Shown piece by piece: positions 325-14,732 of a stretch of 27,242 bases of DNA. The notes beneath the pieces are model-generated. The model searched no databases. It saw only the letters and a list, made by a program, of their open reading frames with translations, and was not told where the DNA came from. The DNA comes from a virus: the IMG/VR virus record IMGVR_UViG_3300049846_000454, positions 1-27,242 of that record; one strand, written 5' to 3'. The first letter of the stretch is position 1. The number at the start of each line of letters is the position of its first letter. The position numbers were made by a program, and so were the translations under genes.

Positions 325-2412
325 GTGCCGATAATCCGCGTTAGCCTTGCATCAGACGGACTTTATTGGGCATCGGGATATGAACCTGCATCCCTTACGG
401 TGTCCCCTGTGTTGTCCGATGCCGAAACGACGGCAACCGTTACCTGCGAAACGACCAGAACGAGCGGGACCATTTATGTTTTCGTTTCGACCAGTGCGAC
501 CGCGCCCTCTGCGGCAACGCTAAAGGCGGGAACAGGGGCGACGTATGCAAGCAGTAAATCGGTAACAAGCACGAGCGAGTCATTTTCTGTTACCGGGCTT
601 TCGGCAAATACGATTTACTACCAGCATTGGATTCACACGTACAATGGGCGGGATTCTGGCATTGTTTCGTCCACGATTCTGACGGCTGCTGCCGCCCCTG
701 GCGTTGGCGACCACGACATCACTCTTTTGCCGCTCGACGGAAACGGTTGGCATGACCTGCTTTCGATGGTTCAGGCATCTGGGAAATACGATGACGCTCG
801 GATCATGTATGTCTCCGAGGCCGATGGGAACAACGGCACGGCGCAGAACTACACGAAGTTTAGCGTGGCTCTTGGAGGGAATGGCTCAAACGTAGCTGGC
901 AATCCGTTTGCGCCTAGCGGGGCGGTTGCGCCGTATGCAACGGCAGCGGCAGCGATTGCGCAAATGCGCGTTGGCAAGCCGGACATCGTTCTTTTCAAGT
1001 CCGGCGAGACGTTCGAAACCACGCAGTCTATTAGCGGGTTGATGACCTACGCGAGCGGTCGGGCAAATGACGAGCGCGCGATCATTGGTGTCTATGGCGG
1101 GTCCGCGCAAGCGATTTTCAAGCGCGACACTAATTCTAGTTTTTGCGTTTTCAGCAACGTGGCTACAACGTGCCAGCACATCATCATCCGCGATCTGCAC
1201 CTTTGGGGATACCTCAAAGACCCGGACAGTCCGTCATTCACCGGAGACGCTGGAGATGTTACCCAGGAAGTAATCGGCTTCAGGATGCGGACAAGCCTGT
1301 ATTCCTGGTTGATCGAGGGATGCACGTTTGCCTACGTCCGAAACGAATTCGACGGGTACGGATCGACGCCTGAGCGAACCATTCAAAACGTCCTGATGCG
1401 GCGTTGCGTAAGTTTCGGTTCGTATGAGGTGCCAAGCAGCAAGGCCAACAATTACCACACAAACCGGCTCATCAATTTCGTGTTCGAGGATTGCGTCAGC
1501 GATTACGGTGGTTGGAACCCTGACGTCGCTGGCGCAGAAACGAAAACGATTTTCTCGCACAACTATTACCTTGCGGATCTACATAGCGGCGTTGAACTGA
1601 GGGAATGCATTTCGACGCGAGCCGCCGCAAACGGGGTGCAGATGCGGGCCGGCGGGCGTATCCACAACTGCTTTTTTGCGGATAACCCGATTGTAGGATT
1701 CACCGGAGCCAACTGCGGATACGGGACCTGGACGTATAACGTCGTGGTTGGGAGTTCGTCAAAATCTGACGGCTCTGGCGGTTGGGGCATGATGGTCAAG
1801 ACCGGATCGCCCGCAACGGAAATCACGGTCCAGAACAACCTCATCATCAATAAGCAAGCGGGGCTTGAGCAAAGCATCATTTCCCAAGCTATTTACGTCG
1901 ATGACAACGCGACGACCGAGCATATCTCGGGGGATATTTCCGACAACGTGGTGGTCAACTGGTTGTCCAATGGCGGGTGTCTGTTACTTCCCGACCCTAA
2001 CCATGTCGTATCGCTGACCGTTACTGGGAACAAGTTTGTGAATGCCGGTGCCGGGCAGGTAGTCATTACGCACAGCGGGGCTGCGAATTCTGCGAAGGTG
2101 GCGATCTCGGGGAACACATATTACACGGACGCTGCCACGGCGCGGTTTAAGATCAACGGCGCAAACAAGACGTTTGCAGAGTGGCAGGCGGCGACCGGGG
2201 ACAACACCAGCACGTTCGCTAACCCGACCTTTTCGAACAGTTCGGCGAGCATCGCGGGTTACATGACCTCTATCAGTGGCAGCGGCACAACCTTGGCCGA
2301 TTTCATGACCAGGGCGAGGCAGCAGTGCAGGAGCAATTGGGACGCCGATTACACCGCTGCGGGGATTAACGCGTATTTCCGCGCGGCATATGACATGGCG
2401 GAGCCGGCATGA
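325..2412 (+). CDS. Beta-helix tail fibre/tailspike-like adhesin
   Basis: A 695-residue protein starting at GTG 325, with GAGGAAA at 314-320 as ribosome binding site. Residues ~25-120 look like a fibronectin type III or Ig-like beta-sandwich: Ser/Thr-rich strands and a SVTGLSANTIYY-type strand typical of Fn3 edges. Residues ~150-620 show the short repeating strands, asparagine ladders and small-residue turns of a right-handed parallel beta-helix (pectate-lyase-like fold), for example VLMRRCVSFG, FVFEDCVSDYG and ITVQNNLIIN. Such proteins are normally virion adhesins or polysaccharide depolymerases. No catalytic residues can be assigned by eye. Its stop overlaps the start of the next gene by ATGA. 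Placement before the terminase genes, away from the two adhesins at 23378-26206, suggests a separate adhesin module. Confidence 0.8.
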   Translation: MPIIRVSLASDGLYWASGYEPASLTVSPVLSDAETTATVTCETTRTSGTIYVFVSTSATAPSAATLKAGTGATYASSKSVTSTSESFSVTGLSANTIYYQHWIHTYNGRDSGIVSSTILTAAAAPGVGDHDITLLPLDGNGWHDLLSMVQASGKYDDARIMYVSEADGNNGTAQNYTKFSVALGGNGSNVAGNPFAPSGAVAPYATAAAAIAQMRVGKPDIVLFKSGETFETTQSISGLMTYASGRANDERAIIGVYGGSAQAIFKRDTNSSFCVFSNVATTCQHIIIRDLHLWGYLKDPDSPSFTGDAGDVTQEVIGFRMRTSLYSWLIEGCTFAYVRNEFDGYGSTPERTIQNVLMRRCVSFGSYEVPSSKANNYHTNRLINFVFEDCVSDYGGWNPDVAGAETKTIFSHNYYLADLHSGVELRECISTRAAANGVQMRAGGRIHNCFFADNPIVGFTGANCGYGTWTYNVVVGSSSKSDGSGGWGMMVKTGSPATEITVQNNLIINKQAGLEQSIISQAIYVDDNATTEHISGDISDNVVVNWLSNGGCLLLPDPNHVVSLTVTGNKFVNAGAGQVVITHSGAANSAKVAISGNTYYTDAATARFKINGANKTFAEWQAATGDNTSTFANPTFSNSSASIAGYMTSISGSGTTLADFMTRARQQCRSNWDADYTAAGINAYFRAAYDMAEPA

Positions 2413-3635
2413 CAGTCCCTACCCTGCACACTGCTGACACAAAGACCTACAATACTGGCGTCACTGCGGCCACAAGCCACGCAATCCCGTACTGCACCAA
2501 CATCAGTGCGGGCGATCTTCTGGTGGTAATGGGCAAGTTTGGTAACGCGACCTCGACTAACGACGGTGGCTTCACGGAAGCCCACGACGGGACGCGGATA
2601 ACGTGCTTGTACAAGACCGCCAGTGGCTCTGAATCAGGCAACCTGACGCTTACTACCGGGTCTGTCCGCGCCGTAGCTACTATGGTTCGGATTAGCGGGT
2701 GGTCGAGTTTCACCGCAGGCACGATCACGAACGAAAGCTTGGACGCGCCGAGCGTTACGTTACCAGCGACCGATGACTACCTGTTCATAAACTTTGCTGG
2801 CGCGCAGCGTTGCGATAACGGGTTTACGAATACCCCAACGGGTTACGGCAACACCAGTTTTACGAAACTGGAAACAAGCTCCGGCAGTTCTACTGCCTCA
2901 AACATGACGTTGGTGTGGGGGTCGCGTACAGCGACCTCAACCGCAGGCCCTGAAAACGCTGACGCATGGACCCAGAGCGGAACGCTTGGTTCGACATACG
3001 CAGCGGTAACGCTGGCTATTCAGGGTGCATCGGCTTCGCGCACTGCTACGCCGACCGCATCGAGCGGCACCCCCGGCTCCACGCAGGTAGTCAACCTGAC
3101 CGGCTTTGGCGGAACTCCGACCGGGGTGACGTTCAATGGGGTTTCGTGCAGCTTCACGGGGAACAGTAGCGCAGTGACGGTAACGCTTCCCGCGCTGTCC
3201 ACGTTCGTAAGTGCGGGGACTCACGCGGCGACCCGGTGGGACACCAACTACACGCTGACTGTCAGCGAAGCTGGCGGGTCGGCTAATGCGACCTACCAGA
3301 TTGATCCCCCGGACACGGACGGCCCGACCTATTGGTTCTACGCTGCGGGGGCGACCCCATATCCTGGCGATAGCGTCCATCCGGTTGGAACGGCTCAGAA
3401 CGACGACGTTTTCGCGCAGGTAGCAACCGGGACGCTTTCGAGCATTTCGACGGGCGGGGCTACGGCATGGTCGGCGGTTCCTGGGCAGCTTCTGGTCAGG
3501 ATTTACGACGTATCAGGCTCTTCATGGTCAACCGTTGATACGTGGAATTTTACGGAATACACGCCTGAAGAAACGATTACCAAAAAGGCGGCTCAATCAA
3601 TCATCAAGCGCCTAGTGCGCAAACTAGTCGGGTGA
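2409..3635 (+). CDS. Phage structural protein with Ig/IPT-like domains
   Basis: A 408-residue, Ser/Thr/Gly-rich, beta-strand-rich protein. Residues ~1-200 resemble the beta-sandwich domain common in phage particle proteins, with motifs such as AGDLLVVM and LYKTASGSESG. Residues ~205-300 look like a second beta-sandwich of Ig or IPT type. The protein ends in a basic amphipathic helix (residues ~390-408, many Lys/Arg alternating with Ile/Leu/Val), which could dock it to another virion protein. The start overlaps the upstream stop as ATGA. It lies between a beta-helix adhesin and two small structural genes, so an accessory adhesin or decoration role is likely but inferred. Confidence 0.65.
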   Translation: MTVPTLHTADTKTYNTGVTAATSHAIPYCTNISAGDLLVVMGKFGNATSTNDGGFTEAHDGTRITCLYKTASGSESGNLTLTTGSVRAVATMVRISGWSSFTAGTITNESLDAPSVTLPATDDYLFINFAGAQRCDNGFTNTPTGYGNTSFTKLETSSGSSTASNMTLVWGSRTATSTAGPENADAWTQSGTLGSTYAAVTLAIQGASASRTATPTASSGTPGSTQVVNLTGFGGTPTGVTFNGVSCSFTGNSSAVTVTLPALSTFVSAGTHAATRWDTNYTLTVSEAGGSANATYQIDPPDTDGPTYWFYAAGATPYPGDSVHPVGTAQNDDVFAQVATGTLSSISTGGATAWSAVPGQLLVRIYDVSGSSWSTVDTWNFTEYTPEETITKKAAQSIIKRLVRKLVG

Positions 3636-5827: not shown

Positions 5828-7731
5828 CAAACGACGAGAAGGTTTTAGAAGAAGCCCTCAAGCGGTTCAAAAAGGCCGAAGAAGCCGAGCAGGAAAACCG
5901 CGATCTTGCCGAGGAAGATTTCCGCTTTGCTGCTGGTGAGCAGTGGCCGGACCAGATCCGGCAGGAACGGGAACAGAGCGACCGGCCTTGCCTCACGTTT
6001 AACCGCCTGCCTGCATTCATCGCCCAGGTTGTCGGGGACGCGCGGCAGAACAAGCCTGCGATCAAGGTATTGCCTTGTGATTCTGGCGCAGATGTCGAAA
6101 CCGCCGAAGTCTATAACGGCCTCATTCGAAACATTGAGTCCCAGAGCCGGGCTACTCAGGCTTACATCACGGCATTCGAGCACTCTGTCACGGGCGGAAT
6201 GGGCGCGTTCCGCATCCTCACCAAATACGCCTCTGATGACAGTTTTGAGCAGGACATCCGCATCGAGCGGATCACTAACCCGTTCTCGGTCTATTGGGAC
6301 CCCAACGCGCGGGAATACGACAAGTCGGACGCGCAGTGGTGCTTCGTTAGCGAATGGATGACCAAAGAGGCGTTCGAAGCGAAGTACCCGAAGGAAACGC
6401 CCGATGATTGGAACGAGGATTATCGGGGCAGCAATTGGGCGCTAGAGGATCGTGTTCGCGTAGCGGAATACTGGTGCAAGAAGCCTGTTACTCGAAAGAT
6501 CGGCCTGCTTGATGGGCGTGTCATTGAGATCAAGAAGGGCATGGAAGGCTTGCCCTTCGAGATGACCCGGACGGTTGAGTCTTTCAAGGTTGTTCGCTAC
6601 GTCCTCTCGGGTCATACGGTACTCGAAGGGCCGAGCGAGTGGGCAGGGCGGTGGATTCCGATAGTCCCTGTGTTCGGACCCGAAGAATGGGTTGATGACC
6701 GGATTAGGTATCGTTCGCTCATTCGGTACGCGAAAGACCCGCAGAGGCAATACAACTACTGGCAGAGTGTAATCACCGAGAAGGTGGCGCTTGCGCCTAA
6801 ATCGCCCTGGCTTGTGACCCCTGCGATGATTGCGGGCCTGGAACGCTTCTGGAACGCCGCTAACAAGGAAAACAGGGCCTACCTTCCATACAACCCTGAT
6901 CCCACGGCAGGACGCCCAGAGAGGCAGCAACCGGCCTTTGTGCAGGCGGCAGAGCTTCAGCAGTCCGCCCAAGCGATTGACGACATGAAGGCCACGATGG
7001 GCCTTTACGACGCATCCCTTGGGAACCAGAGCAACGAAACGAGTGGGAAAGCGATCATCGCCCGGCAGAGGGAAGGCGATAACGCAACTTATGCGTGGAT
7101 CGACAACCTCGCGCGCTCTATCCAGCACGCAGGCCGAATCCTGGTTGACCTCATTCCACGAATCTACGACACCGCACGAATCGTCCGCATCATGGGCGAG
7201 GACGAGGCGGCGGAAATGGTGCCGATCAACTATGTATTGCCCACAGGTGAGGTCATTAACGACCTGTCCGTCGGGAAATACGACGTTGAGATTGTGGTCG
7301 GTCCGAGCTACGCCACGAAGCGCATGGAAGCCGCTGAGAGCATGATGGCGTTTGTTCAGGCTATCCCGCAGAGCGCGCAGATTGCAGGCGACCTGATAGC
7401 CAAGGCAATGGATTGGCCGGGCGCAGAAACGATTGCAGAGCGTCTGAAGAAGGCGCTACCTCCGGGCATTGTTGACGAGAAGATGACGCCAGAGGAACAA
7501 CAGGCCCAACAGGCAGCGATGCAGGAAGCCGAGGAAATGAAGCAGATTCAGAAGGCTTCGGTTATCGCGGATATTGAACTGAAGCGCGCACAGGCGGCTA
7601 AGGCTAAGGCGGACGCGAGCAAGGTTCTGGTGGAAGCGGAAGCGCAGGACATCGAGAACACTGCCGTCGAGACGGGCATGGCTAGTTTGTTGGACCGAAT
7701 GAATGCCCAAGATCAAGCATTTGCTGGATAA
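5824..7731 (+). CDS. P22-type portal protein
   Basis: 635 residues from ATG 5824 (ATGA overlap with terL); a TTG at 5815 is an alternative start. It is recognisable as a P22-type portal by the N-terminal helix and clip region with RPCLTFNRLPAFIAQVVGDARQN (residues ~54-76), the ITNPFSVYWDPNAREYDKSD stretch (~149-168), the core with GNQSNETSGKAI and an Ala/Glu/Lys/Gln-rich helical C-terminus like the barrel of P22 gp1. Somewhat shorter than P22 gp1 (725 residues). It forms the dodecameric ring at one capsid vertex through which DNA is packed and ejected. The last 29 nt overlap the next gene. Confidence 0.93.
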   Translation: MTNDEKVLEEALKRFKKAEEAEQENRDLAEEDFRFAAGEQWPDQIRQEREQSDRPCLTFNRLPAFIAQVVGDARQNKPAIKVLPCDSGADVETAEVYNGLIRNIESQSRATQAYITAFEHSVTGGMGAFRILTKYASDDSFEQDIRIERITNPFSVYWDPNAREYDKSDAQWCFVSEWMTKEAFEAKYPKETPDDWNEDYRGSNWALEDRVRVAEYWCKKPVTRKIGLLDGRVIEIKKGMEGLPFEMTRTVESFKVVRYVLSGHTVLEGPSEWAGRWIPIVPVFGPEEWVDDRIRYRSLIRYAKDPQRQYNYWQSVITEKVALAPKSPWLVTPAMIAGLERFWNAANKENRAYLPYNPDPTAGRPERQQPAFVQAAELQQSAQAIDDMKATMGLYDASLGNQSNETSGKAIIARQREGDNATYAWIDNLARSIQHAGRILVDLIPRIYDTARIVRIMGEDEAAEMVPINYVLPTGEVINDLSVGKYDVEIVVGPSYATKRMEAAESMMAFVQAIPQSAQIAGDLIAKAMDWPGAETIAERLKKALPPGIVDEKMTPEEQQAQQAAMQEAEEMKQIQKASVIADIELKRAQAAKAKADASKVLVEAEAQDIENTAVETGMASLLDRMNAQDQAFAG

Positions 7732-9337
7732 GCTCGACAACGCTGCGCGGCGTCTCGCATACCACGGCAGTCCTCACGACTTCGCAGCGGAAAGGCTCGT
7801 GCGCCTCGCGGATGGGACTGAGCAATGGATTGTGGGCAAGCCTGGGCTGCTTCCTGACGTTCCTGCTGGGGCAGAGGTGCTGAAGGATGCGCCGTTAGGC
7901 CGGTTCCGTCTGGACAAGATGGGGACGGGCGAAGGCGCGCAGGCTTATGGGGCGGGGGCGTATCTTAGTAGTTCTGACAGCATAGCTAGGGGGTATAGAA
8001 ACAAACTTTCAGACAACAATTTTTCGTTTGCAGACGAAGAATCGCGAAAACTATATGACGACGTAACGAATTTCGCAGATGGCGCTGGCTTGTATGCTCT
8101 GCGGATCGTTAACGGGAAAGGCTCTAGATATGAAAAAGCGGCAGATTTGCGCCGTCTAGCCGAGGACTCTGCTGCCTTAAACGATGAGTATTACGCTAGG
8201 GCATATACCGCAATGGCCGACCTAGTAGAAAACGGGAAAATGGAAACCCGCACTACAGGCAAACTCTATACCGCAGAAATCCCCCACGAATCCCTGATGC
8301 TGGACTGGGACAAGCCGCTGAGTGAGCAGCCAGAATATGTTAGGCAGTCCTTTGCCGCTGTTGTGGATGTTCCCAAAAGCAAACGCCTCCAAAGTCGCGG
8401 GGATTGGGCGGCTAGAACGGACGAGTTCGGTAATGAGTGGTGGGAATCGAAGGATATTGACGGAAGGCGCGGCGTCGTTATAGGGAAGAAAGGCCCGACG
8501 CGGTTCCGGCCAGGCCAGCCTGTTTCCTACTATGTGGCGTCTAGCTCAAACAAGGGTTTCGGCGAGTTTTCTACGTTCGAGGAAGCGAAGGCGGCGGCAG
8601 AGGGCGGGGTAATCGCCGACGATTTCAACCCGCTAGACCGCGAGATAGCCTCTATCCAACGTAGCATGGGCGGCGAGATGACGGGGCGCGACGTTTATGA
8701 GGGGATGGCTAAAAAGTACGGTTGGAGCCAAGATCGAACCTCGCAAGAATTGGCAAAGCGCGGAATCCCTGGTCTTACCTACATCGGCGGCACCTCTGGC
8801 GAGCGCAACTTCGTCCTGTTCGACGAGAGCGCCATCGACATAAAAGAGAAGGGGATGATTGATCCGAGGTTGCTGGTCCCTGTTGCCGCTGCTGGGGGCG
8901 TTGGCGTAGCGGCGCAGGCGTATGACTACGGCACGCCTGAACTGGACGCAGCCTATCGCGCGTATGAGTCCAAGCGGTCCCAAAAGCGTGACATCTGGCG
9001 CACGCTGAAGGATTCGATAGAGTTCGGCGCGACTCTTGGCTCTGCCATTGGCGGCGGGATCATTGCGGACGCGTCGAGACTCGGCGGGTATCTGAATCCG
9101 TTCATGTCTACGCAGGACACCGAGCAAGGCGCGCAGGTGATAGAGAACAACCTGCAATACGTGCCGAGCCAGCCTAACGCAATGCTCGAATCATTCGGGC
9201 AGCAGATGAACCAGTTTAGCCAGGACATTGAGCCGCTAGCGGCCCCGTTCCGGCAGTCGATCCCATACAAAGCCTACGAGGCCCTGCCAGAACGTGCGCA
9301 GGGGATAGTAAGGATCGGCGCAGATTACGCCTTCTAA
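7703..9337 (+). CDS. ADP-ribosyltransferase-domain protein (ART-PolyVal type)
   Basis: 544 residues. The N-terminus has AYHGSPHDF (residues 19-27), then LDKMGTGEGAQAYGAGAYL (70-88), the signature of ADP-ribosyltransferase domains found in phage polyvalent proteins; His21 and Tyr82/Tyr87 would be NAD-binding positions. The end of the domain is AKRGIPGLTYI plus RNFVLFDESAIDI (~350-385). About 40 residues separate the first two motifs, which normally lie close together, and residues ~233-301 look like a further inserted domain. The third catalytic acidic residue cannot be assigned. After the domain come two Gly/Ala-rich hydrophobic stretches (~390-405 and ~440-455). P22 has no gene in this slot. 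Wedged between portal and scaffold, it may be a virion-packaged or ejected effector (inference, by analogy with T4 Alt). Overlaps the portal gene by 29 nt. Confidence 0.85.
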   Translation: MPKIKHLLDKLDNAARRLAYHGSPHDFAAERLVRLADGTEQWIVGKPGLLPDVPAGAEVLKDAPLGRFRLDKMGTGEGAQAYGAGAYLSSSDSIARGYRNKLSDNNFSFADEESRKLYDDVTNFADGAGLYALRIVNGKGSRYEKAADLRRLAEDSAALNDEYYARAYTAMADLVENGKMETRTTGKLYTAEIPHESLMLDWDKPLSEQPEYVRQSFAAVVDVPKSKRLQSRGDWAARTDEFGNEWWESKDIDGRRGVVIGKKGPTRFRPGQPVSYYVASSSNKGFGEFSTFEEAKAAAEGGVIADDFNPLDREIASIQRSMGGEMTGRDVYEGMAKKYGWSQDRTSQELAKRGIPGLTYIGGTSGERNFVLFDESAIDIKEKGMIDPRLLVPVAAAGGVGVAAQAYDYGTPELDAAYRAYESKRSQKRDIWRTLKDSIEFGATLGSAIGGGIIADASRLGGYLNPFMSTQDTEQGAQVIENNLQYVPSQPNAMLESFGQQMNQFSQDIEPLAAPFRQSIPYKAYEALPERAQGIVRIGADYAF

Positions 9338-10208: not shown

Positions 10209-10862
10209 TCACTCCACCAGTTGAAACTCCGGGAAGTTTGGCGAATGACAGCGCCTTCGAATGGTTCCCCATTTGATGCCTGTCGCGCTGGCCGCTTCTT
10301 TTAGTGTTCTGTATCTGATTCCGTGGATTATGCAGGGTGTCTGCTTAGGCGGATTCTTTAGCATGTTCTGGACGACCCAATCGGGTCTAGGGCCATAGCG
10401 AACCGGCGGCCTGATGCCGAGCCGTTTAATAGCGGCTCCTATTTTGGCCTTCGTTTCGTCAGATAGACGGCGTCCTTTTTGGCGCTCGCTTTGCCGCTTC
10501 TTGGCGGCGTCGCTCATTTTCGACCGTTTGAGCCTGTCAACCGTTTCCGCGTGGCGATCTCTGATGTGTGTCATTGCTGGCACTATTTCGAGGTTATCCG
10601 CGCGGTTGTCGGACTTGTCATGGTTCTTGTGGTGCACATGCTCGCCCTTCTCTATGGGGCGAATCCATGTATGGGCGATAGCGCGGTGCAGCAGTTGTTT
10701 TCTTCCCATGTGGAAGTAGCCGTCTTTCCTAGGCTTCGGTTCGTATGGCTCGCCAAGCCGGAGAACCTTGCCGTCTTTGGATATGGAATACAGATGATTG
10801 AAGGGCCGGTATTCGTCACGCATGTGTCGGCTCAATTGTTGGAGGTCAACATTATAGGACAT
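10209..10862 (-). CDS. HNH (homing-type) endonuclease with NUMOD-like domains
   Basis: 217 residues from ATG 10862 (- strand); ATG 10823 and TTG 10880 are alternatives. From the N-terminus: a NUMOD4-like strand set FNHLYSISKDGKVLRLG (residues ~21-37), an HNH core HVHHKNHDKSDNRADNLEIV (75-94) with His77/His78, Asn86 and Asn90, a NUMOD3-like basic helix GRRLSDETKAKIGAA, and a C-terminal NUMOD1-like DNA-binding repeat RTLKEAASATGIKWGTIRRR. This matches free-standing phage homing endonucleases that cut a cognate site and spread by repair. It is antisense to the late operon and fills the entire scaffold-coat gap (0 nt and 5 nt from its neighbours), suggesting a later insertion. A TATAAT at 10851-10856 inside the 5' part favours the shorter start at 10823. 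Confidence 0.9.
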   Translation of the reverse strand: MSYNVDLQQLSRHMRDEYRPFNHLYSISKDGKVLRLGEPYEPKPRKDGYFHMGRKQLLHRAIAHTWIRPIEKGEHVHHKNHDKSDNRADNLEIVPAMTHIRDRHAETVDRLKRSKMSDAAKKRQSERQKGRRLSDETKAKIGAAIKRLGIRPPVRYGPRPDWVVQNMLKNPPKQTPCIIHGIRYRTLKEAASATGIKWGTIRRRCHSPNFPEFQLVE

Positions 10863-10880
10863 GGCTAATGAGCAACACAA
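10851..10880 (-). promoter_or_regulatory. Possible promoter for the HNH gene
   Basis: On the - strand a perfect TATAAT (10856 to 10851) is preceded by an 18-nt spacer and TTGTGT (10880 to 10875), a weak -35 match. Transcription would start near 10843, just upstream of ATG 10823. It overlaps the ribosome binding region and first codons of the coat gene on the other strand. The -10 is convincing by eye, the -35 is not. Confidence 0.4.
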
Positions 10881-12136
10881 TTAGAACCCCTACCGAGATC
10901 ACGCGCGAGGCTTTGCGCGTACTCCACGGGAAACTTGGCTTTATCGGCAACGTCTCGCGGCAATATGACAACCGCTTCGCCCAGACCGGCGCGAAGATCG
11001 GGACGACCCTGAACATTCGAATGCCGCCCCGGTACAGCGTCCGCACTGGTTCCGCCATCTCTGTGCAGGACCATGTTGAGCGCTCGACCCCGCTGACGAT
11101 CAGTTCGCAGGCCGGTATCGACCTGAGTTTCACTTCGGTTGAACTCACGATGTCGCTGGACGAGTTCAGCTACGTCGTTCTCGAGCCGGCAATGTCGCAA
11201 CTGGCAGCGCACATCGAGAATTCGTGCCTGTCCGCTGCGTACAAATTGGTCTCGAACTACAACGGCACCACGACCACGAGCGGTCAGATCACGTTCAAGC
11301 AGTTCGACAACATGGGCGCGCTTCTCTCTGAGAATCTGGCCCCGACTGCTAACCGTGTTGCGCTGCTGTCGCCGGTATCGCGTAACGAGTTCAACGACGC
11401 CACCAAGGGGCTGTTCCAGGCGTCGGACAACCTCGCCAAGCAGTACCGTGAGGGCATGCTGGGTCGCACCTCGGGCTTCGACGTTTATGAGAACACGTTC
11501 CTGCCGACGCACACGACCGGCACGCTGGCTGGCAGCCCGCTGACCAACGGCACGGGTCTCGGCTCTACGACCACCTCGAACGAGTGGGTATCGCAGACCG
11601 ACCTGTCGATTGACGGCGCGACCAACGGCACGACCCTCAAGGCTGGCGACATCATCACGCTGGGCACGACTTCGGCGGGCGTCCTCGACGTTCACGCTGA
11701 ATCGAAAACCTCGCTTGGCCGCCTCAAGCGGTTTGTTGTGCAGTCGGATGTCACTCTGACGACCTCGACCTCGGCTTACACCGTAACGGTCAAGCCCGGC
11801 CTGATCACCGGCACTGGCAACGCGTACAAGAACTCGCTGCTGACCGGCACGACCACGACCGACAACATGACCGTGACCCTGATCGGCAACGTCGGCACGA
11901 CCTACGGTCAAAACCTTGCGTTCCACAAAGACGCATTCGTTTTCGGCACGGCGGACCTCGTGGATGTGTCGAACATGGGTGCCTGGGGTGCGCGTGAGGT
12001 GATGGACGGTATTTCCGCCCGTCTGGTTCGCCAGTACGACATCAGCGTTGACTCGGTATATGCCCGCTTCGACATCCTGTACGGATTCGGCGGACTGTAC
12101 CCGGAACTCGCTGCGCGGAACTGGTACACGCTGTAA
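10868..12136 (+). CDS. P22-type major coat protein
   Basis: 422 residues, close to P22 coat gp5 (430). The start TPTEITREALRVLHGKLGFI, the following NVSRQYDNRF, and the HK97-fold-like pattern of an N-terminal arm, long helix and beta domains, ending in RFDILYGFGGLYPELA, are as in P22 coat-family proteins. It forms the icosahedral shell around the scaffold. Ribosome binding site AGGA (10856-10859), 8 nt before ATG. Its codons strongly favour C/G-ending forms (ACC/ACG, GGC, CTG, AAC), unlike the flanking ART and glycosyltransferase genes, as expected for the most abundant virion protein. A hairpin follows the stop. Confidence 0.93.
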   Translation: MSNTIRTPTEITREALRVLHGKLGFIGNVSRQYDNRFAQTGAKIGTTLNIRMPPRYSVRTGSAISVQDHVERSTPLTISSQAGIDLSFTSVELTMSLDEFSYVVLEPAMSQLAAHIENSCLSAAYKLVSNYNGTTTTSGQITFKQFDNMGALLSENLAPTANRVALLSPVSRNEFNDATKGLFQASDNLAKQYREGMLGRTSGFDVYENTFLPTHTTGTLAGSPLTNGTGLGSTTTSNEWVSQTDLSIDGATNGTTLKAGDIITLGTTSAGVLDVHAESKTSLGRLKRFVVQSDVTLTTSTSAYTVTVKPGLITGTGNAYKNSLLTGTTTTDNMTVTLIGNVGTTYGQNLAFHKDAFVFGTADLVDVSNMGAWGAREVMDGISARLVRQYDISVDSVYARFDILYGFGGLYPELAARNWYTL

Positions 12137-12145
12137 TTGAGGTTT

Positions 12146-12194
12146 TCGCGGGGTCGGTGTCCCCTCCACCCTTGGCCGAAAGGTGGCCCCGCGA
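12146..12194 (+). promoter_or_regulatory. Strong compound hairpin after the coat gene
   Basis: TCGCGGGG (12146-12153) pairs perfectly with CCCCGCGA (12187-12194). Inside it CCACC (12166-12170) pairs with GGTGG (12182-12186), stacking on the 3' side of the outer stem. No T-run follows, so it is not a textbook terminator. It may reduce read-through after the coat gene or protect the 3' end of coat mRNA, lowering expression of the enzyme cassette downstream (inference). Confidence 0.65.
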
Positions 12195-12200
12195 TCTTCT

Positions 12201-12206
12201 GAGGGG
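12201..12206 (+). promoter_or_regulatory. Ribosome binding site of glycosyltransferase-like gene
   Basis: GAGGGG lies 5 nt before ATG 12212 but only 2 nt before the in-frame GTG 12209, which favours the ATG as the start. It sits 6 nt after the hairpin at 12146-12194, so folding there could affect access to it. Confidence 0.6.
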
Positions 12207-12211
12207 AAGTG

Positions 12212-12982
12212 ATGGATAAGACTCGGAGACTTGGTAAGGCTAAACCGTCCCAGATTAGCGCGTTTGTTGCGACACCGGCCTATGACGGCAAGGTGGACGT
12301 GGACTACGCGGTTTCTCTGGCTGATTCCTGCATGGCTGCGACCATGGCAGGGATTAAGGTCAACGCCTGCGTGATGGGTAACGGTGCGTTTATTGAGATG
12401 GCGAGGAACATCTTTGCCAAGCAGTTTCTTGATAGCGACTGTACTCATTTGTTCTACATCGATTCGGACCTAAAGTGGGAATGGCGGGCATTCGTTGGGC
12501 TTTTGCAGGCCGGTCGGCCTGTTGTCTGCGGGGTTTATCCCAAAAGGCAGAGTCCTGAGGAATACCCCGTGCATTACATCGAGGACGAGAGCAATCCCGG
12601 CATCCAGATTATGGAAGGCGGGTGGATCGGATGCGACAAGGTTCCCACTGGATTCTTGTGTATCGAACGCTCAGTCATCGAGGAAATGGTTAAGCACGTC
12701 CCTGCCTTGGAACTTAAGGATCACGGTTCCGTTCCGTGGTTGTTTAGTACCGAGATTGTCGAGAACAAGGACGGCACCAAGACGTTCATGGGGGAAGATT
12801 TCGCGTGGTCCGTTAAATACGGGCAGATTTTCAACAAACCTATTTACGCGTGGCCCGACTTCGACTTCATACACCACGGTCATCGTGGGAACTGGCACAA
12901 ATTCATGCTTGCTGCTGTAGAGCGGGCAGAGAAGGAAGGTTCCCTCATTAATCTGGTTACGTCGGAGGTGGTCAATGGCTGA
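12212..12982 (+). CDS. Glycosyltransferase-like protein (GT-A fold)
   Basis: 256 residues from ATG 12212. The N-terminus shows a strand and nucleotide-binding-like start AFVATPAYDGKV (residues 17-28), then SLADSCMAATMAG, EMARNIFAKQFL (62-73) and CTHLFYIDSDLKW (77-89), with the DSD (84-86) of metal- and sugar-nucleotide-binding GT-A enzymes. VVCGVYPKR and a C-terminal HHGHRG follow. This arrangement recurs in phage-encoded glycosyltransferase family 2-like proteins. No membrane segment or signal peptide, so it should act in the cytosol. It is the first gene of a three-enzyme cassette with 8-nt and 4-nt overlaps, behind the coat gene. Donor and acceptor are unknown. Codon use (AGG, GGG, AGT) differs from the coat gene. 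Confidence 0.75.
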   Translation: MDKTRRLGKAKPSQISAFVATPAYDGKVDVDYAVSLADSCMAATMAGIKVNACVMGNGAFIEMARNIFAKQFLDSDCTHLFYIDSDLKWEWRAFVGLLQAGRPVVCGVYPKRQSPEEYPVHYIEDESNPGIQIMEGGWIGCDKVPTGFLCIERSVIEEMVKHVPALELKDHGSVPWLFSTEIVENKDGTKTFMGEDFAWSVKYGQIFNKPIYAWPDFDFIHHGHRGNWHKFMLAAVERAEKEGSLINLVTSEVVNG

Positions 12983-13520
12983 GGTAGAGTTTGTTTCAAC
13001 GCCTGTTCGCGGGCATGAATTGCTGATCGGGTGCGGGAATAACCGCGCGAAGCAATTGGCGGGGAAGGGGACGGGCGAGGAATGGAAGGATGTCGTTACG
13101 CTCGACATTGATCCCAACTGCAACCCGGACGTTCTGTGGGACCTGAATCACCTTCCCTATCCTTTCGAGGATGAGACGTTCGCAGAAATCCACGCCTATG
13201 AAGTGCTGGAACACGTCGGGCAACAGGGTGACTGGCGGTTTTTCTTCCGGCAGTTCGAGGAATTTCACCGCATCCTGAAACCGGGCGGCATGTTTTTCGG
13301 CGTGGTTCCAATGTGGGACCAAGAGTGGGCATGGGGCGATCCCGGCCACACTCGTGTGATTACACCGGGGACGGTGATGTTTCTCAGCCAGGAAGTGTAC
13401 GAGCGGGATGTCGGCAAAAGCACGATGACCGACTACCGGCACTTCTATAAGGCCGACTTTGAGGTTGAGGGCTGTCAGGAGGTAGGCGGAAGGCTTTGTT
13501 TCGTTCTGTCTAAGAAATGA
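12975..13520 (+). CDS. Class I SAM-dependent methyltransferase
   Basis: 181 residues, GGAGG at 12964-12968 six nt before ATG. Motif I LLIGCGNN (residues 16-23) binds SAM, LDIDPN (43-48) supplies the acidic residue after strand 2, the EVLEHV stretch (76-81) is the motif II region and RILKPGG (99-105) is motif III. Together this is a Methyltransf_11-like small-molecule, sugar or protein methyltransferase, not a DNA methyltransferase: no DPPY or PCQ motif is present. Partners are the glycosyltransferase-like gene upstream (8-nt overlap) and the radical SAM gene downstream (ATGA overlap). A sugar-modifying role is plausible from context only. Confidence 0.8.
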   Translation: MAEVEFVSTPVRGHELLIGCGNNRAKQLAGKGTGEEWKDVVTLDIDPNCNPDVLWDLNHLPYPFEDETFAEIHAYEVLEHVGQQGDWRFFFRQFEEFHRILKPGGMFFGVVPMWDQEWAWGDPGHTRVITPGTVMFLSQEVYERDVGKSTMTDYRHFYKADFEVEGCQEVGGRLCFVLSKK

Positions 13521-14335
13521 GCCTTGCGTTAGCGAGGGAATACTACCTCGACCAACCGAAAGAGGTTTCGCTGGAAACCTTCTCGCGGTGCAATGCGGCC
13601 TGTACGTTTTGCCCGTATCCCACGTTAGAGCGTATCGGTACGAAGATGCCGGACGCTCTGATGTGGCGGTTGGTTGATGAGATGTCCGAATGGACGATCC
13701 CGTTTGATTTCTGCCCGTTCAAGGTCAACGAACCGCTTTTAGACAAGCGGGTGATGCCGTTGCTTGAGCGGGTGGAAGCTCAAACGATTGCGGACATACG
13801 TCTATTCACCAACGGGCAGGCGTTAACCGAGAAGTGGGTCGAGCAGATCAACCAGCTTGATCGGCTGAAAGTCCTGTGGATTTCGTTAAACGACCACCGA
13901 CCGGAAGAATACCGGCAGTTGATGGGCCTGGACTTCGAGCGCACTGCCAGAAACCTAGATTTCCTGCACGACTCGGACTTCATCCATCCCGTGACCGTTT
14001 CGAGGGTTGGTCACAGCGAGGAATTCCAGCGTTACGTTCACTCTCGCTGGCCGAAGTTCCAGATTGTGCAGATCAAAAAGGATGGCTGGTTAGGCTACAC
14101 CGATCCTGCGGTGGACGTTGTGCCGAATACGCCCTGCTCGCGTTGGTTTGAACTGTCCATCATGGCAACAGGGCGCGTTGCGTTGTGCTGCATGGACGGC
14201 GAGGGGAAATTTCAGATTGGCGACCTGACGACGCAGACGATGCTGGAAGTCTACAACTCGCCACATTGGCGTGATCGTCGGGAACGGATGATTTCGCGGA
14301 AGGAAGTGTTCCCCTGCTCTACCTGTACCTACTGA
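13517..14335 (+). CDS. Radical SAM/SPASM-domain enzyme
   Basis: 272 residues. CNAACTFC (residues 25-32) is the CX3CX2C cluster that binds the catalytic 4Fe-4S and SAM. A partial TIM barrel follows. The C-terminal half has the SPASM-type cysteines: Cys207, Cys224, Cys225, Cys267 and Cys270 (pattern C..CC..CxxC), for one or more auxiliary iron-sulfur clusters. Such enzymes modify peptides (sactipeptide, thioether or epimerised RiPPs), sugars or proteins. No precursor peptide gene is seen nearby. It ends the coupled cassette and stands 7 nt before the gp4-like gene. The enzyme class is clear, the substrate unknown. Confidence 0.87.
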   Translation: MSLALAREYYLDQPKEVSLETFSRCNAACTFCPYPTLERIGTKMPDALMWRLVDEMSEWTIPFDFCPFKVNEPLLDKRVMPLLERVEAQTIADIRLFTNGQALTEKWVEQINQLDRLKVLWISLNDHRPEEYRQLMGLDFERTARNLDFLHDSDFIHPVTVSRVGHSEEFQRYVHSRWPKFQIVQIKKDGWLGYTDPAVDVVPNTPCSRWFELSIMATGRVALCCMDGEGKFQIGDLTTQTMLEVYNSPHWRDRRERMISRKEVFPCSTCTY

Positions 14336-14342
14336 GGAAGCA

Positions 14343-14732
14343 ATGGCCACCGCAAGGGATTTGATAACGATGAGCCTGCGGACGATTGGCGTCCTGCACT
14401 CTGGCGAAACGCCGAGCGCAGAGGAAGCCACCGACGGACTCGACACCCTTAACCAACTGATGAACAGTTGGCTTTATGAGGGCATCGACCTCGAATGGAA
14501 AACGCTTACGAGTCTGAACGACGCCATCGTTTACCCTGACGACCACATCGGGCCATTCCGCTACAACCTTGCGGTCGCCTTGTCCCCTGATTATGGGGTT
14601 CAGGTCACGCCTGCCGTGGCTGCGCTTGCTCGTAATGGGTATGACCAGTTGCGGCGGCAGTATCTCGACAACCGGGAACTTGCCGTAGACAACGCATTGA
14701 CCCAGACCTACGAACTTAACAGGCGGTTCTGA
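14343..14732 (+). CDS. P22 gp4-like head completion/tail accessory protein
   Basis: 129 residues with GAGGA just upstream of ATG. The pattern is that of P22 gp4-like tail accessory proteins: N-terminal ARDLITMSLRTIGVL helix, LDTLNQLMNSWLYEG (residues ~34-48), a segment with FRYNLAVALSPDYG, and a charged helical C-terminus. P22 gp4 is 166 residues; this is shorter. It binds below the portal and helps close the head after packaging. P22 gp4 also has lysozyme activity, which cannot be judged here. Overlaps the gp10-like gene by 1 nt (TGATG). Confidence 0.82.
   Translation: MATARDLITMSLRTIGVLHSGETPSAEEATDGLDTLNQLMNSWLYEGIDLEWKTLTSLNDAIVYPDDHIGPFRYNLAVALSPDYGVQVTPAVAALARNGYDQLRRQYLDNRELAVDNALTQTYELNRRF

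Follow-up and report, generated by a model that had tools for sequence, protein, structure and literature searches.

What do three enzyme genes do inside the head operon of a P22-like phage, and on what do their products act? The question is raised by a 27,242-base IMG/VR virus record (the window, here the whole stretch of DNA analysed), in which a P22-like podovirus is represented by its genes for packaging, head and ejection: those for the terminase large subunit, portal, scaffold, coat, gp4, gp10 and the ejection proteins were recognised. Genes for a glycosyltransferase (GT), a methyltransferase (MT) and a radical SAM enzyme (rSAM) lie between coat and gp4, with gp4 and gp10 directly 3′ of the cassette. 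The features of the region are listed below.

10868 to 12136, plus strand: P22-type major coat protein, 422 aa, the proposed acceptor (Pfam P22_CoatProtein, 6.6e-31; PHROG major head protein, 3e-63)
12146 to 12194, plus strand: stem-loop between coat and GT, a possible attenuator; the window lacks a U-run there
12209 to 12982, plus strand: GT-A glycosyltransferase, soluble, 256 aa counted from the ATG at 12212 (phrog_1574 and fold)
12975 to 13520, plus strand: class I SAM-dependent methyltransferase, 181 aa (Methyltransf_11, 3.1e-6)
13517 to 14335, plus strand: radical SAM/SPASM (twitch-like) enzyme, 272 aa (Radical_SAM, 6e-11; SPASM, 4e-9)
14343 to 14732, plus strand: gp4-like tail accessory/head-completion protein, the 3′ border of the cassette (P22_Tail-4, 1.2e-6; PHROG head-tail adaptor)

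The GT and MT genes overlap by 8 nt and the MT and rSAM genes by 4 nt. A gap of 7 nt separates the end of rSAM from the start of gp4 (14343), and the leader between coat and GT measures 72-75 nt. The GT reading frame has a GTG start at 12209 and an alternative ATG at 12212; the ATG is the likelier start, given the ribosome-binding sequence GAGGGGAAG that precedes it. No membrane segment was detected in GT, MT or rSAM (highest 19-residue Kyte-Doolittle mean, 1.14). A gtr serotype-conversion cluster was rejected, since it requires membrane-bound GtrA/GtrB and a multi-span Gtr, and none of the three genes encodes a membrane segment. A RiPP biosynthesis cassette was rejected for want of a precursor peptide gene: none is found within the cassette and none is conserved in the relatives, and the overlaps, the 7-nt gap and the short leader leave no room for one. 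This negative covers the cassette; very short ORFs may occur elsewhere. An earlier note on this DNA had described the three genes with the same overlaps between coat and gp4, named the enzymes as glycosyltransferase-like, SAM methyltransferase and radical SAM/SPASM, seen no membrane segments and disfavoured RiPP synthesis. The ORF coordinates and hydropathy values agree with it, the lack of space bears out the case against RiPP synthesis, and the names are upheld by Pfam, PHROG and the GT-A fold model.

Elsewhere in the window, an HNH_3 homing-type endonuclease gene (10209-10880, minus strand) lies antisense between scaffold and coat, and its 5′ end and that of coat overlap by 13 nt. A 544-aa ORF between portal and scaffold (7703-9337, plus strand) has no Pfam match and a marginal PHROG match, and most relatives have no counterpart at that place. 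Two large ORFs of 695 and 408 aa, 5′ of the terminase genes (325-3635, plus strand), have no PHROG match.

GT matches phrog_1574 at 2.2e-19, a family labelled 'unknown function' in PHROG. Pfam gave no match and no sequence relative was found among solved structures, so that the naming of the enzyme rests on PHROG kinship and fold. The AlphaFold model, of high confidence with a pLDDT of 87, has a GT-A fold, and its best match is A197 of the archaeal virus STIV (Z 16.9, rmsd 2.3 over 159 residues, 18% identity), with lysyl hydroxylase LH3, mimivirus R699 and collagen galactosyltransferase as further neighbours. Against the same model, Z is about 13 for TarP, SpsA and WrtF, which are GT-A enzymes acting on other acceptors, and likeness of a predicted fold to protein glycosyltransferases does not establish a protein acceptor. 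The catalytic residues are almost invariant among the relatives: the DxD aspartates D85/D87 in 98/98, E196 in 97/98, D197 in 98/98 and H222 in 97/97. Profile match, fold, DxD motif and catalytic acids together place the enzyme with the GT-A glycosyltransferases of phrog_1574.

MT is assigned to the class I SAM methyltransferases by its match to Methyltransf_11 (28.2 bits; cut-off 21.2) and by a conserved SAM-binding region, and it has invariant positions across about 100 relatives. A profile search found no relative of MT among solved structures. In the collection of named phages MT had no match and rSAM a single weak one; named phages thus hold hardly any close kin of these two enzymes.

The assignment of rSAM to the radical SAM/SPASM enzymes follows from Pfam matches over the cut-off, the cluster motif CX3CX2C at residues 25-32 and SPASM/twitch cysteines at 207, 224, 225, 267 and 270. 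The motif cysteines are conserved in 61/62 phage relatives, and the five C-terminal cysteines in 59/61 to 61/61. In the model, which is of medium confidence at a pLDDT of 75, the closest folds are BtrN (Z 18.4), ChlB (17.6), PqqE (16.0) and EpeE (15.9); as fold kin of the modelled enzyme, BtrN, an aminocyclitol dehydrogenase, and ChlB, a peptide modifier, are tied. BtrN is also the best sequence profile match (1.9e-10, over the core only), and EpeE/YydG is matched at 2.9e-6. Likeness to BtrN thus comprises the best match in sequence and in fold, a similar length and cysteines compatible with one auxiliary cluster, whereas identity is about 18% and the phage enzyme differs by an extra invariant cysteine and by its phage context.

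All three enzymes are under strong purifying selection. In comparison with the nearest relative (contig 3300049846_000522), dN/dS is 0.042 for GT, 0.071 for MT and 0.064 for rSAM; in the same comparison coat (0.167) and gp4 (0.152) both lie above the cassette enzymes.

To what extent is the cassette linked to the coat gene? IMG/VR was scanned with the coat, not the enzymes, as seed, and 80 loci with coats 54-84% identical were collected. GT is the next gene after coat in 74 of the 75 testable loci; at the lone exception, L077, it is part of a long ORF whose start precedes coat. MT is present in 58/61 testable loci and rSAM in 25/58 loci bounded by gp4, and the order coat-GT-MT-(rSAM)-gp4 is constant. 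Clustering at 95% identity resolves the 65 loci of the coat tree into 53 groups. For the control, the DSL-LC05 type served as seed and yielded 80 loci of a sister P22-like coat clade; among the 63 testable loci, GT was found in none, MT in one and rSAM in none. A GT gene conserved with virion genes, one of the marks expected of phage virion glycosylation, is thus seen here together with a negative control. Recurrence of the order in dozens of independent contigs and its absence from the sister clade indicate more than chance. Noise of the HMM searches as the source of the GT matches was rejected on the 0/63 of the sister clade; random insertion of cargo was rejected on the conserved order, the purifying selection and the absence from that clade. 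The cassette is a conserved, selected and virion-linked set.

In the five named P22-coat phages compared (PAE2, DSL-LC05, PBR31, P26218 and VvAW1) nothing larger than small ORFs separates coat from gp4, which fits the remark of the earlier note that P22 has nothing there. The uncultured record MW202691 carries a GT at this site, without MT or rSAM. The three genes had been treated earlier as one unit, a view that was to fall if they were never conserved together in related phages. They do recur together and in order, but the unit is not an obligatory triplet: presence or absence of rSAM changes state eight times on the coat tree, and at least four of these changes fall on branches with good support. 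The unit that stands is a GT-MT core, to which rSAM is an added option.

Variation was also seen within the clade. A related-looking ORF of 111-117 aa, with no family assigned, lies between GT and MT at L010:3741-4094 and L011:4395-4730, and L101, L102 and L104 have GT-MT gaps of the size of this ORF. L087:4206-5254 holds a tandem pair of MT genes, with GT before and rSAM after.

A second scan was seeded with the rSAM family. It recovered phages with an unrelated coat and portal of the SU10 type (SU10_MCP, SU10_portal), in which rSAM and MT adjoin the terminase gene, ahead of the portal. A GT of the same broad family lies behind the coat in all six of these records that exceed 12.5 kb, and in four of the six it lies no more than 340-360 nt from the coat gene. 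GTs of SU10-type and P22-type phages share a median identity of 23% (best 29%), against 48% within the P22 type. The corresponding medians across types are 51% for MT (best 60%) and 50% for rSAM (best 57%), against 55% within the P22 type for each; the loci were found through rSAM, so that its figure is conditioned on detection, while those for MT and GT are not. GT sequence thus tracks capsid type, whereas for MT and rSAM the capsid type makes little difference to identity. This suggests recognition of the capsid protein by GT, with MT and rSAM acting on something common to both kinds of phage, most simply the sugar. The SU10 sequences group together as a single clade in the MT tree; among the remaining groups, short coat-less contigs labelled 'other' inflate the number of apparent exchanges, and no rate is claimed.

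The set was seen in different orders in other virion modules (L184, L210, L215, L220). A natural fusion of GT and methyltransferase adjoins the rSAM gene at L206:4228-5622. Within an MT-rSAM-MT-GT cluster, L215:5337-6014 encodes a sulfotransferase, possibly a further tailoring step.

Relatives of rSAM in cells keep similar company. In Clostridium ljungdahlii the order is flagellin-GT2-MT-rSAM, a further GT2 and flagellin lie close by, and C. luticellarii has the same kinds of genes; the arrangement occurs in 2/207 genomes of the family, and the clostridial rSAM is about 36% identical to the phage enzyme. These loci resemble the cassette: a self-assembling surface protein is encoded next to a glycosyltransferase, a methyltransferase and a radical SAM enzyme. 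They differ in being cellular, in a GT2 with TPR repeats and in a longer methyltransferase. In Reyranella (L133) a TPR-rSAM protein adjoins a methyltransferase, and a TPR transferase of the GT41 type is encoded close by. GT, methyltransferase and rSAM occur together in all the cellular settings, twice beside a self-assembling surface protein. Cellular relatives with N-terminal extensions were found at L117, L118, L121, L124 and L133, some of them beside methyltransferase, GT41 or TPR genes; this cellular group, so far undescribed, may function in protein glycosylation.

Evidence on the host comes from L116, a member of the clade that has all three enzymes; its contig, 83.7 kb long, belongs to a genome bin of Woeseia. 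On this contig (contig 10 of the bin; L116, L339) an integrase lies at 36.4-37.9 kb, downstream of the cassette phage, followed by genes which, identified by eye, we take to be galU, rpsA, cmk, aroA and pheA. An integrase followed by chromosomal genes indicates that the cassette lineage includes a prophage of a gammaproteobacterium.

We consider it probable, though well short of certain, that the three genes are a cassette for glycosylation of the virion, expressed along with the head genes, in which GT acts on a virion protein (probably the coat) and MT and rSAM tailor the sugar. The soluble GT would move a sugar from a host nucleotide-sugar onto a virion protein in the cytosol, the most likely acceptor being the coat protein encoded directly 5′. 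MT would then methylate the attached sugar, and rSAM, by analogy with BtrN, would add a step of radical chemistry on it (oxidation, epimerisation or similar) in about half of the phages of the clade, the present one included. We infer the acceptor, the sugar, the order of the steps and the action of rSAM on sugar, not peptide; adjacency to coat could reflect timing of expression instead of the acceptor. A more specific form of this proposal, possible and offered tentatively, is decoration in two layers: a capsid-specific GT co-evolving with the coat, and a portable MT/rSAM pair that would make the attached sugar unusual. The pair itself is common to phages with unrelated capsids.

The acceptor may be another virion protein, a tail fibre or spike or a head-completion protein. 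No datum names the acceptor, gp4 and gp10 follow the cassette directly, and in mycobacteriophages the tail tube protein is also described as modified (PMC11600133). We regard this as unlikely, since GT lies behind coat in two unrelated capsid families and follows the capsid type in sequence, while the genes after GT and the positions of MT and rSAM vary. Direct modification of a virion peptide by rSAM and MT (epimerisation, crosslinking, or N- or O-methylation of coat or another protein), with GT acting separately or in addition, draws on the tie of the rSAM fold with ChlB, on PqqE and EpeE close behind and on the profile match to EpeE/YydG. It appears improbable: the best match in sequence and fold is BtrN, which acts on an aminocyclitol, the cellular kin of rSAM adjoin GTs, and a pair common to unrelated coats would be awkward for enzymes that read one protein sequence.

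The enzymes might instead act on the host surface, altering a glycan precursor in the cytosol and leading to a block of superinfection or a change of serotype. Glycosyltransferases of pelagimyophages have been read in this way (PMC7029224), and with a temperate member in the clade, the Woeseia prophage, conversion is conceivable. The genes, however, have no membrane segment, flippase or GtrA/GtrB-type partner, and lie inside the head operon at every locus bounded by coat and gp4, whereas conversion genes usually lie outside the late operon; we judge this reading, too, to be improbable. The earlier note had favoured modification of a virion protein (coat or fibre) or of a host surface sugar precursor; the virion arm is strengthened by linkage in the clade and recurrence in SU10-type phages, and the host-sugar arm gained no support of its own. 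Hypermodification of phage DNA by GT and MT is very improbable. Phage DNA glucosyltransferases exist, and the GT of L206 has a marginal match, below the cut-off, to a TET-associated glycosyltransferase family (4.6e-4). Against it, the cassette has no base-modifying or nucleotide-pool gene, the set occurs in virion modules only, MT matches general methyltransferase models and no DNA-methyltransferase family, and the fold neighbours of GT are protein and polysaccharide transferases.

Glycosylation of the phage particle has been shown in few phages, where it was noted for shielding from antibodies. We know of no radical SAM enzyme that modifies a virus particle; a two-layer system, if real, would be the first such case. 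The uncultured podovirus clade appears to keep enzymes of this kind near-constantly in its head operon and to add radical SAM chemistry. If this is true, decoration of capsids with tailored sugars would be a common phage trait of which standard models of the virion and studies of host range take no account, and a capsid-specific GT with a portable tailoring pair would make acceptor specificity directly testable.

The closest known systems are STIV A197 and those of mycobacteriophages, in which capsid and tail are reported to be glycosylated by phage GTs (work cited in PMC12363180 and PMC11600133). For Corndog, Che8 and Myrna, gp38/gp110 are needed according to papers that cite the work (PMC12363180, PMC11600133), the source being Freeman et al. 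2023 (through PMC12363180, PMC11600133, PMC11256854). In Corndog an O-methyltransferase adjoins GTs inside the virion operon, and capsid modification was suspected by its authors (PMC4351075). These phages thus share with the present one phage-encoded glycosyltransferases and, in Corndog, a methyltransferase in the virion operon, but have no radical SAM gene in the regions compared. Location differs as well: GTs lie between portal and protease in Corndog and at the genome end in Che8. Comparison of Che8 gp108-110 with the present GT family gave no homology (best E 0.008, 5 bits). In Thibault (cluster J) the capsid gene is followed by GT, kinase, MT and GT; the first GT behind the capsid gene is homologous to the present GT family (59.9 bits), and the kinase, methyltransferase and further GTs precede the head-tail connector gene. 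The region nevertheless has no radical SAM gene, its annotated methyltransferase fails the present MT model, and the phage is of an unrelated type. To our knowledge, modification of the Thibault virion has not been demonstrated.

STIV A197, the best structural match to GT, is likewise a soluble, minimal GT-A enzyme; it is essential to the virus and is the candidate for the enzyme that glycosylates the STIV coat protein (PMC10551542, PMC4187194). It belongs to an archaeal virus with a double jelly-roll coat, its likeness to GT lies in the fold and is weak in sequence, and the portions of these sources dealing with it mention no MT or radical SAM partner (PMC10551542, PMC4187194). A search of open-access papers turned up no account of GT, MT and radical SAM as a set linked to a capsid gene. 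The earlier view of the cassette as undescribed holds to this extent for the version with radical SAM, but not for virion sets of GT and methyltransferase, which were known from mycobacteriophages with demonstrated virion glycosylation (PMC4351075, PMC11600133, PMC12363180). Most likely, the cassette belongs with virion glycosylation rather than with a wholly different system, and the addition of radical SAM is its novel part.

How the enzymes are expressed relative to coat is hinted at by the stretch between coat and GT. Scans for sigma-70 promoters and terminators gave nothing above chance. The stretch at 12137-12211 of the window folds at -29.9 kcal/mol, with a z of -0.49 against shuffles; the stem-loop of the window itself is thus no more stable than shuffled sequence and is unremarkable. 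The structure is also present in the nearest relative (L042). In 12 of the 17 valid intergenic stretches of relatives z is -2.3 or lower, several of them with a U-run; the folded stretch of L092, largely within coat, was left out. These relatives, rather than the window, suggest that the stem-loop may act as an attenuator, by which the enzymes would be expressed at a lower level than coat.
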